The position numbers were made by a program, and so were the translations under genes. 34,091 nucleotides of DNA from a virus. Below the pieces are notes generated by a model. It was not told the origin of the DNA. It saw only the letters and a list, made by a program, of their open reading frames with translations, and searched no databases. The stretch is taken from positions 1 to 34,091 of the IMG/VR virus record IMGVR_UViG_3300021420_000092, one strand, 5' to 3'. Shown here piece by piece: positions 9,764 to 34,003 of this stretch (the stretch's first letter is position 1; the number at the start of each line of letters is the position of its first letter).

Positions 9764-9947
9764 GCGCGGCACTGAAACTATCGGACTTTGCCCAATTCAC
9801 AATCGCCCTATTCCTTGTTTGTCATGCAGGGCTGCCAAGGGTGGTCGAGTGTCGAGTCCGGCCAAGTCGGAAGCGAATCGAGCCAAGGCCAAACACGCAG
9901 CGAATGTTCGTTGGGGACGGAAGGAGACCGATCCTGCCGGGTTATAG
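9762..9947 (+). CDS. Small Cys/His protein, 61 aa
   Basis: 61 residues from ATG 9762; ATG 9729 gives 72 but would lie inside the divergent gene. The motif GLCPIHNRPIPCLSCRAAKGG has C-x2-H and C-x2-C, zinc-finger-like, followed by a basic Lys/Arg/Ala tail ending NVRWGRKETDPAGL. Such short Cys/His proteins are frequent in phage accessory blocks. No ribosome site is evident. First gene of a short rightward island between two leftward operons. Confidence 0.5.
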   Translation: MRGTETIGLCPIHNRPIPCLSCRAAKGGRVSSPAKSEANRAKAKHAANVRWGRKETDPAGL

Positions 9948-10341
9948 TGAAGCTTGTGTCTCGGGTCAACATGAGGCTTGCGTCGATCCTGATTGCCGCT
10001 GCCTTCATCATGCGAAAGTACAAGCTCTCATGCGTCCGAATGCCCAACTACCGATTAACTCGGAGAATCAATTCGTTTGCCCTCGATGCCAAACTAAACC
10101 AAGAAACGGAGACCTTTATTGCAGGGACGATGGGGAAAGGCTCGTAATACCGAAAAAGTGTGAATGTGGTCAGATTGGTGACAAATCGGATCGCTATTGT
10201 GGAAAATGCGGGAAGTCATTCGTAAGGCCGATTACACCCATTCCAGAACTGGAACTCTCCGAAGAGGAAATTGCGGCTATCGAAGCGAAGGCTCGAATGA
10301 GACCATCCGATGTCGAAGTTCCTCCGACTGAGGTTCACTGA
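9904..10341 (+). CDS. Multi-zinc-ribbon protein, about 135-145 aa
   Basis: The body is clear: CVSGQHEACVDPDCRCLHH, a Cys/His cluster known in many phage small proteins, then CPRC, YCRDDGER, and CECGQIGDKSDRYCGKC, making two more zinc ribbons, with an acidic C-terminal helix (LSEEEIAAIEAKA). The start is uncertain. ATG 9904 has no ribosome site and overlaps the previous gene by 44 bases. AAGGAG at 9921-9926 stands 7 bases before CTG 9934 and 4 before ATC 9931. Likely a nucleic-acid or protein adaptor; no specific function. Confidence 0.7.
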   Translation: MFVGDGRRPILPGYSEACVSGQHEACVDPDCRCLHHAKVQALMRPNAQLPINSENQFVCPRCQTKPRNGDLYCRDDGERLVIPKKCECGQIGDKSDRYCGKCGKSFVRPITPIPELELSEEEIAAIEAKARMRPSDVEVPPTEVH

Positions 10342-32068: not shown

Positions 32069-32350
32069 ATGTTCGACAAGAAAAAGCCAATTCCGCCGAT
32101 TGCTACAAAGATTCAAACGCAGTTGACGGAACTGGCGCAACCTGTTCGGAGGCCGCTCCTCGAAGCCATGCGCATCGAGACGCAACGCAAGGAAGCGGCA
32201 CTTGCCGTGGCGCTCGAAACGGTTCGGCAGTTGACTATCGAAGTGCAGAGCGCTCGCCGGGAAGAGATGTGGCTCTCGATGAATCCCGAATTCGATTCGA
32301 TCTATAACCGACTAGCGGGGCCGGAAAAGGCGAAAGTAGCAACGCCATAA
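32069..32350 (+). CDS. Hypothetical protein, 93 aa
   Basis: 93 residues. A long charged helix (LEAMRIETQRKEAALAVALETVRQLTIEVQSARREEMW) suggests a coiled coil. The ATG directly follows the stop of the duplicated gene end (TGAATG). No family recognised. Its stop TAA overlaps the ATA proposed as start of the HNH gene (ATAA). Confidence 0.6.
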   Translation: MFDKKKPIPPIATKIQTQLTELAQPVRRPLLEAMRIETQRKEAALAVALETVRQLTIEVQSARREEMWLSMNPEFDSIYNRLAGPEKAKVATP

Positions 32351-32685
32351 CACGCAAAAAGCACGATTGGGATCGACAAGCTACTGCCGGGGCCGGTTTC
32401 TCGGACCCTAGGTCTTATATCACGCATAGCGGGCATCAATTTTTGTTCGGAGATGACGTTCGGCAGAGACGAGCCGAGATTTTCGAGCGTGACAAAGGTC
32501 TATGCCAGTTGAGAGTGTCGAAAGACTGCGTTTGGTATCCCGGCTGGTACGGACATCTCCATCACATCAAGGGCGGTAATACCGATGATCGGTGCTGGTG
32601 CAAATCGAATTTAGCTTGGAGTTGTCGGCACTGTCATGCCGAGATTCATCCGAGGGTAAAATGGAGACATGAAGATCAAGAATGA
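32347..32685 (+). CDS. HNH nuclease, unusual start
   Basis: HNH core is clear: QRRAEIFERDKGLCQL, HLHHIKGGNTDD, SNLAWSCRHCHAEIHPR. Only TTG 32443 is a standard start, with no ribosome site. The frame stays open back to ATA 32347 and reads coherently (TRKKHDWDRQATAGAGFSDP), with ATAA overlapping the previous stop. So the true start may be ATA or another non-standard codon, giving 112 residues instead of 80. Phage HNH proteins of this size cut DNA during packaging or homing. Overlaps the next nuclease by 17 bases. Confidence 0.7.
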   Translation: MTRKKHDWDRQATAGAGFSDPRSYITHSGHQFLFGDDVRQRRAEIFERDKGLCQLRVSKDCVWYPGWYGHLHHIKGGNTDDRCWCKSNLAWSCRHCHAEIHPRVKWRHEDQE

Positions 32686-33001
32686 AGCCGAGATTCTACT
32701 TTGGCAGCAGATTCAAGAACTTCGCGGCTATGTGCGATGGGCCAAAGAATATAAGTTTCACCCGGATCGGAAATGGCGAGCGGATTTCTGCATTTGGGAC
32801 AGTGAACATAATCGGGATTGGATGATCGAAATTGAGGGAGCGGTTTTCACGCAAGGCCGACACACCCGAGGCGCTGGTTTTATTGCAGATATGAGCAAAT
32901 ACAATCACGCCGCTATGCTCGGATTCAGGGTACTGAGATTTACTCCGAAAGATGTTTTGACTGGCAGAGCGATTGAATTCATTAAGAAGGTCTTGGAATG
33001 A
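32669..33001 (+). CDS. VSR-like/PD-(D/E)XK nuclease, 110 aa
   Basis: 110 residues. FHPDRKWRADFCIWD with Asp39 and WMIEIEGAV with Glu54-x-Glu56 form the active-site pattern of VSR/DUF559-type nucleases; TRGAGFIADMSKYNHAAMLGFRVLRF is the following helix-strand unit. Family members nick or cut DNA, and phage versions may resolve branched DNA. The C-terminus DVLTGRAIEFIKKVLE is found again, slightly diverged, at 33411-33464 behind the broken HNH gene. Ribosome site is only partial. Confidence 0.8.
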   Translation: MKIKNEAEILLWQQIQELRGYVRWAKEYKFHPDRKWRADFCIWDSEHNRDWMIEIEGAVFTQGRHTRGAGFIADMSKYNHAAMLGFRVLRFTPKDVLTGRAIEFIKKVLE

Positions 33002-33464
33002 ATAAGCTCAAACGTCCATTTCGCCTCATCGGATTACTTGGAAAGCTGAATTACGATCCTAATACTGGATGTTGGAATTGGCCGCTCAATGGCCGTCACA
33101 CCCAAGGATACGGGATAGCTTACTACAAAGGAAAGCGCATCAGGGCGCATCGCTTGGCAGCTATTCTTTGGTTGGGCTGTTCTGCACAAATGCGATAATC
33201 CTCCCTGTTTCAATCCAAAGCATCTCTATCTTGGAACTGATAAAGAAAACGTAAGGGATTCGGTAATTCGTGGCAGGCAATTTTGCGCTAGTAAGACCCA
33301 TTGTTAAGCGTGGGCACCCATTCGATGAAACAAACACGCGAAAATATCGCAATAGGAGAAACTGTCGAAAGTGCGATGTAATCAAATCACAGAAATATCA
33401 GGCTAAGAAGACAGTTCTCGACGGATCGGCTATTGCATTTATTAGGAAAGTTTTGGAGTTGTGA
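32998..33464 (+). pseudogene. HNH homing endonuclease broken by two frameshifts, ending in a duplicated gene tail
   Basis: Frame 1 (32998-33198) reads LNYDPNTGCWNWPLNGRHTQGYG ... AHRLAAILWLG then shifts. Frame 2 (from 33179) reads VLHKCDNPPCFNPKHLYLGTDKENVRDS ... KTHC-stop. Frame 3 (from 33306) reads KRGHPFDETNTRKYRNRRNCRKC. Together they rebuild a normal HNH homing nuclease like the one at 4326, with about 8 residues missing at the first junction. Frame 3 ends in TVLDGSAIAFIRKVLEL (33411-33464), a second copy of the C-terminus of the preceding nuclease gene. Looks like a decayed homing gene inserted near the end of that gene. Confidence 0.85.
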
Positions 33465-33523
33465 TCGGGAGTACGGGAGTTTGCCGACGAACTTCTCTGC
33501 GCTCTCGGAAGGAAGGTCGAGCC

Positions 33524-34003
33524 ATGAAATTGACACCGGAACGAATGATCGAACTACGCGATCCTGACAAATGGAGTGCTCAAGATTCGCTAGATGCGCT
33601 CGACACCATCGACGCCCTCACCGCCGAACGCGATGTAGTAGCTCGCGGGCAGGCGCTGCGGGATGCGGCTGCCGAAGCTGAGGATCAAGACAAGATTCCG
33701 ATGTCCAAGGGTATCGCAAAGCGCATCCTCGCCCTCTCTCCCGACGCCATCCGGCGAGCCGAGGAGCACGACCAAAGGACGCGGGAAAAATACCGCGCTG
33801 ATCTAATTGTCGAAGGATGGATTGGTCCAGTGCAAGCGGAGCAGGTTGTAGCCAAGGCGCGGAGGGATGAAGCGTCGAAGTGGATTCAGTATACGAGTGA
33901 TAGACACATCGCCCAAAATTGGGCAGCGAATCGCATCAAGGAACTCGCCGCCCTTCCCGCGTCAGGCCCCGAGCAAGTATTCAAGGATAAACTAAATGAC
34001 TGA
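33524..34003 (+). CDS. Hypothetical protein, 159 aa
   Basis: 159 residues from ATG 33524 (AAGG 7 bases upstream), not from the in-frame ATG 33461. Helical and charged: KWSAQDSLDALDTIDALTAERD, GKGIAKRILALSPDAIRRAEEHD, DEASKWIQYTSDRHIAQNWAANRIKELAAL. Such all-helical acidic/basic proteins are common in phages without known function. Ends with an 8-base overlap to the next gene. Confidence 0.6.
   Translation: MKLTPERMIELRDPDKWSAQDSLDALDTIDALTAERDVVARGQALRDAAAEAEDQDKIPMSKGIAKRILALSPDAIRRAEEHDQRTREKYRADLIVEGWIGPVQAEQVVAKARRDEASKWIQYTSDRHIAQNWAANRIKELAALPASGPEQVFKDKLND

Follow-up and report, generated by a model that had tools for sequence, protein, structure and literature searches.

A decayed HNH gene between two ends of a phage nuclease gene suggests insertion with a replacement 3' end

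How does a phage nuclease gene come to have two versions of its own 3' end, one in use and the other lying behind a broken HNH gene? The question is raised by IMGVR_UViG_3300021420_000092, a complete virus record of metagenomic origin, 34,091 bases long, that was analysed over its whole length (the window) and whose terminase, portal, Erf-like and O-like genes identify it as a tailed phage. On its plus strand, the gene for a VSR-like/DUF559-type nuclease of 110 amino acids (32669 to 33001) is followed by the remains of an HNH_3-type homing-endonuclease gene and then by a second copy of the nuclease gene's end. The best explanation, and one that we regard as quite probable, is that an HNH_3 cassette carrying a replacement end was inserted in the nuclease gene and left the native end stranded behind it.

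The two ends can be told apart by comparison with L002 (IMGVR_UViG_3300021171_000001), a close relative with about 90-96% identity to the window phage over most aligned stretches, which possesses the same VSR-like gene with no HNH gene there and hence represents an empty allele. Alignment-based scans for relatives of the VSR-like gene returned many homologues, from Acinetobacter and others, among which L002 alone was near enough to be treated as an allele of this locus. The native body of the window gene (32669 to 32943, plus strand) differs from L002 at 9 of 275 nucleotides. At 32945 the window gene departs abruptly from L002, at the point where the stranded copy begins, and continues to 33001 with a different sequence that encodes TPKDVLTGRAIEFIKKVLE and a stop, such that the protein reads ...RFTPKDVLTGRAIEFIKKVLE at its C-terminus. 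The L002 nuclease ends with VLDGSAIAFIRKVLE, which is the window's stranded tail (TVLDGSAIAFIRKVLEL; 33411 to 33464, coding 33411-33461, stop 33462-33464, plus strand), identical in 15 of 15 residues and in the first 20 nucleotides. Since the L002 gene ends with the stranded tail, this tail is native, and the newcomer is the end in use. Further downstream, 33483 to 33542 is back at 97% identity to L002 (3731-3790). The left and right breakpoints lie within about 10 nucleotides of each other on L002, as would be expected of insertion at one cut site. A preliminary description of this DNA had proposed that two paralogous tails flank the HNH gene, and that a homing gene brought along a copy of the 3' end of its target. 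The former is confirmed by a flank-to-flank score of 53, where none of 140 inverted-orientation controls reaches 48, together with the identity of the L002 gene end and the second tail; the latter is supported by the layout of L002, an HNH-less allele with a single tail such as that description had envisaged, and by recurrence elsewhere.

The nuclease itself matches phrog_503 (E 4e-32) and retains the invariant residues E27, D39, E54 and H65, which place it in the VSR-like/DUF559 family, while its match to Pfam DUF559 reaches only 13.6 bits, under the family cut-off. Its AlphaFold2 model is a confident prediction (mean predicted local distance difference test score 84.8), for which the closest solved folds, with weak E-values, are 3hrl (a putative endonuclease) and the catalytic domain of the homing endonuclease I-Bth0305I. 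Against the family profile, the L002 gene scores 133.9 bits, the window gene with its new end 131.1 and the body alone 111.0. The replaced segment includes the nearly invariant G99 and A101 and forms the last two helices in the predicted structure, so that its loss without a substitute would be predicted to take away conserved parts of the fold. Because both versions fit the profile and G99 and A101 are nearly invariant, the new end could plausibly function in place of the old one.

The start of the HNH gene overlaps the nuclease stop codon (ATGA, 32998-33001), and its remnant is spread over three reading frames of the plus strand: fragment 1 (MNKLKRPF...HRLAAILWLG, 32998 to 33172), fragment 2 (AVLHKCDNPPCFNPKHLYLGT...KTHC, about 33176 to 33307, with its stop at 33305-33307) and fragment 3, a zinc-finger-like C-terminus (KRGHPFDETNTRKYRNRRNCRKCDVIKSQKYQAKK, 33306 to 33410) with which the stranded tail is in frame. 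Padded with X at the lesions, the remnant reaches 30.0 bits against Pfam HNH_3 (PF13392), passing the cut-off of 24.8. Since its frame is broken twice and about six residues are missing, the window copy is a remnant of an HNH_3 member and not a working one. Both frameshifts reported in the preliminary description are present, with a refinement: the second lesion (about 33302-33308) is a simple frameshift, and the first (about 33172-33180) also lacks the six or so residues. The spacing from the HRxx to the HxCD motif is 15 residues in 93 of 109 intact relatives and nine in the window; the first lesion is thus a deletion together with a frameshift, and a one-base sequencing error is implausible. 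Judged on its sequence, the HNH gene is genuinely decayed.

A sequence of events that would produce this arrangement can be outlined. A co-infecting phage most likely supplied a cassette made up of the replacement end and the HNH gene. A free-standing HNH_3-type endonuclease would have cut the native nuclease gene some 18 codons before its end, and repair of the break would have inserted, in order, the re-encoded end, a stop overlapping the HNH start and the HNH gene, with the native end kept as a stub behind it. The replacement end would keep the nuclease protein whole. Because the replacement DNA differs from the native DNA, the HNH target would be destroyed and little direct-repeat homology would be expected to remain for excision. 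It is tempting to speculate that the reduced repeat homology also guards against loss by annealing, as the phage encodes an Erf-like annealing protein. The HNH gene would have decayed later and the cassette would have stayed, since the nuclease gene would be disrupted if it lost the new end. We infer from the arrangement that the HNH protein made the cut and was active in homing, that recoding confers immunity and that repair followed this route.

The same architecture recurs at other HNH genes. Across the fetched loci, the two flanks of each of 140 distinct HNH places were matched against each other in every frame, and a repeat of the procedure in inverted orientation served as control. At a score of at least 48, eight direct flank repeats were found against no inverted ones; two of the eight are of low complexity and six are genuine: the window, L066, L302, L021, L073 and L082. 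Matches at L011 and L314, of low complexity and out of frame, were rejected, as was one at L093 that reflects a tandem HNH pair. The five other cases sit in unrelated phages, and their HNH genes are all intact and above the HNH_3 cut-off. A 3' end is duplicated in L066, where a PDDEXK_1 gene meets the HNH gene in an ATGA overlap like that of the window, and in L082, where the HNH gene lies on the opposite strand to a tail-fibre-like gene. A 5' end is duplicated in L302 (MAEPNFGAI), in L021 (MVDTGGAQRHPADTERL, with 17 of 17 residues equal at a DNA identity of 73%) and in L073, at a small gene of unknown family with the HNH gene on the opposite strand. For L073, 49 HNH-less alleles differ from the stranded start at 3-11 of 42 nucleotides and from the start in use at 13-18 of 42, and the stranded copy is therefore the native one. 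For L066, L302, L021 and L082, where a close empty allele was not found, gene context alone decided which copy is taken as native, and the host-gene relatives of L302 and L066 were too distant for native copies to be identified at the DNA level. In the locus L050 (2447-2950), the similarity between HNH flanks resembles two tRNA-like sequences on the opposite strand.

A further case can be found in a cultured phage of the cluster O mycobacteriophages. YungJamal gene 60 has been published as an opposite-strand insertion of unknown function, between imperfect repeats that differ without altering the amino-acid sequence, and Dylan, Corndog and Firecracker have a single copy; that report offers no homing or rescue interpretation (PMC4351075). 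Gene 59 of YungJamal ends in GTPLRRWPL with changed codons, and the stub past gene 60 keeps the native DNA, ACCCCGTTGCGTAGGTGGCCG. Dylan, at about 99% identity, has YungJamal's stranded end as its native end. The C-terminal part of the gene 60 product is HNH-like by eye and several of its relatives are annotated as HNH endonucleases; Pfam gave no family. On these sequences, the region is readable as a recoded end next to an HNH-like gene. Elsewhere in YungJamal, gene 57, which encodes HNH_3 and AP2 domains, is inserted at the start codon of the tape-measure gene (both in L443, 1507-2150), where the new YungJamal start reads ACG GCA ATA CAT ATT against ATG CCG ATA CAT ATA in Dylan. This insertion may represent a shorter form of such an event, and it might account for the report of a non-canonical start in Corndog, whose peptide AIHIDIYAHLQK has been seen by mass spectrometry (PMC4351075).

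In six pairs of ends, the copies agree in protein and the differing codons comprise 51 synonymous and 11 non-synonymous ones. Among codons for shared residues, 51 of 70 are changed, compared with 48.75 for random synonyms. When host codon usage is taken as the reference, six pairs, YungJamal among them, have 44 changed codons where 34.7 are expected (P 0.0036), a test with small codon samples to which L073 contributes most.

The strongest competing explanation is plain intronless homing, in which an HNH gene sat beside a divergent donor allele, part of which was co-converted with it. The new end would then show ordinary divergence and no special recoding, and would rescue the gene only by chance. 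We judge this unlikely rather than remote, and it overlaps the cassette explanation, differing in that it denies selection on the new end. Co-conversion of flanks is the standard mode of free-standing phage endonucleases (PMC2988022), and both ends of the window gene fit the family. Ordinary co-conversion, however, replaces the recipient's end and keeps no stub behind the gene. Moreover, the new start of L073 is farther from all 49 alleles than most of these are from each other, and in four of six pairs (L066, L021, L073 and L082) third-position G+C is 38-58% in the end in use against 88-100% in the stub; the window pair lacks this contrast.

Several results count against the cassette explanation and its extension to other phages. 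The window pair alone, with eight codons changed where 7.5 are expected, shows no excess over saturation, just as plain homing would have it. It may be that the new end is no more than a divergent allele, carried along in the absence of selection for recoding. A donor of TPKDVLTGRAIEFIKKVLE was looked for and none was found, nor does the base composition of the new end point to a donor within the window. Between the stranded end and L002, 10 of 50 sites differ, mostly synonymously, a higher rate than the 9 of 275 found for the body (Fisher P 7e-5); L002 is hence not the direct ancestor, and its own end may have been exchanged. The layout is infrequent (about five of 139 other viral HNH places), and an independent bacterial (Burkholderiales) HNH_3 set yielded none in 15, with a top direct score of 46 and one control of at least 48, and so lends no support. 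Finally, the HNH gene of the window is dead.

The other alternatives fare far worse. A tandem duplication of the nuclease gene, followed by replacement of most of the second copy by the HNH gene, would also put two tails of one gene family on either side of it, but is contradicted by L002, which is single-copy and whose tail equals the second tail, not the first. As the stub starts where the first copy leaves L002 and no further paralogous remnant is seen, we consider such a history very improbable. A chimeric metagenome assembly or a sequencing error would be suspected because the window is known from a single metagenomic virus record; yet the first lesion removes about six residues besides shifting the frame, and the same architecture is found not only in several further contigs but also in a phage that has been cultured and sequenced and whose near-identical relatives are empty, which makes an artefact hardly credible. 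Weakest of all, and barely worth entertaining, is the notion that the HNH protein itself ends in the second tail, or that the similarity is due to chance: no stop separates the tail from the last HNH fragment, whose frame it shares, but HNH relatives end without such a tail and it equals the L002 nuclease gene end over 15 of 15 residues and 20 consecutive nucleotides. The preliminary description had noted that an intact HNH gene owning the tail as its C-terminus would speak against its proposal, and none came to light. HNH matches stop at or soon after the zinc-finger segment, the match in L004 extends past that segment without the tail sequence, the only match to the tail is the VSR-like gene itself, and a protein search of known phages for an HNH-plus-tail fusion returned none.

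The cassette explanation has a counterpart in fungal mitochondria. Hybrid genes are described there for atp6 of Allomyces macrogynus and for atp6, atp9, cox2 and nad3 of Glomus in the relevant sections of PMC3630166, and similar C-terminal duplications of atp6 and cob for Endoconidiophora in those of PMC6279837. As these accounts present them, the hybrids share with the window an endonuclease gene near the 3' end of a host gene, a foreign functional end and a native end stranded behind it (PMC3630166), as well as ends that differ mostly at synonymous sites and an element-free relative that carries the native end. The window has these same traits: its functional end differs from the native one, which lies stranded past the endonuclease gene and is the end carried by L002. 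The fungal elements in those sections are LAGLIDADG or GIY-YIG in mitochondria, whereas the phage cases are HNH_3 in tailed phages; the latter also occur at 5' ends or on the opposite strand (L302, L021, L073 and L082), placements that do not figure in the accounts of the fungal hybrids (PMC3630166, PMC6279837). T4-like phages also have free-standing endonuclease genes (the seg and mob genes), some inside coding sequence, with split genes in Aeh1 nrdA, T4 39/60 and phage 25 gene 43; these insertions are intergenic or split a gene into two polypeptides, with no replacement end described (PMC2988022). The window departs from T4-type intronless homing, in that the element sits inside coding sequence and leaves the recipient's end behind as a stub. 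A parallel in its working is the synthetic home-and-rescue gene drive, whose cassette lands in a gene and whose recoded end restores function and resists cutting, although these drives are engineered with CRISPR and have no relationship of descent to the phage elements (PMC7968924).

Whether HNH_3 genes of tailed phages include a recurrent natural home-and-rescue class, able to use either gene end in either orientation, carrying a recoded copy of the displaced end and selected for enzyme escape and against repeat-mediated loss, seems to us evenly poised. Fungal mitochondria offer known examples of the trick; for phages, our literature search, which covered open-licence papers only, found no description of such a class, spanning both gene ends and either strand, and it appears to be undescribed there. 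Such elements would show how a selfish gene can enter a useful gene harmlessly with neither intron nor intein, and would be a natural counterpart of engineered home-and-rescue drives that has been documented so far mainly in fungal mitochondria. In phages, the layout would mark the likely HNH recognition site as the sequence between the native body and the native stub. From it follows the prediction that native ends, but not replacement ends, are cut, testable in cultured mycobacteriophages by comparing YungJamal with Dylan. It is also a possible account of odd repeats and truncated gene ends beside phage HNH genes.

Some further features of the locus may be recorded. A DNA-level search of known phages with the window locus gave no match. 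In the second half of the stranded tail (33434-33463), differences from L002 (3306-3335) are almost exclusively synonymous; there L002 is nearer to the window's replacement end, and the three ends look mosaic. Just past the stub (33465-33542) the window lacks about 385 bases that in L002 (3346-3730) form the 5' part of the next gene, and upstream of the nuclease gene (32329-32437, against L002 2167-2769) it lacks about 600. The relative G001 (L014-L016, about 45250-45640) has an intact HNH gene of the same family between two genes, and the window has none at about 9890-10240; this HNH gene, at about 45.4 kb, is intergenic with no duplicated end, and its flanking genes diverge around it. A second HNH-like gene in the window (phrog_333, 32350-32685) overlaps the nuclease gene at its start, and the start codon employed by L002 (2664-3017) is apparently missing from the window.
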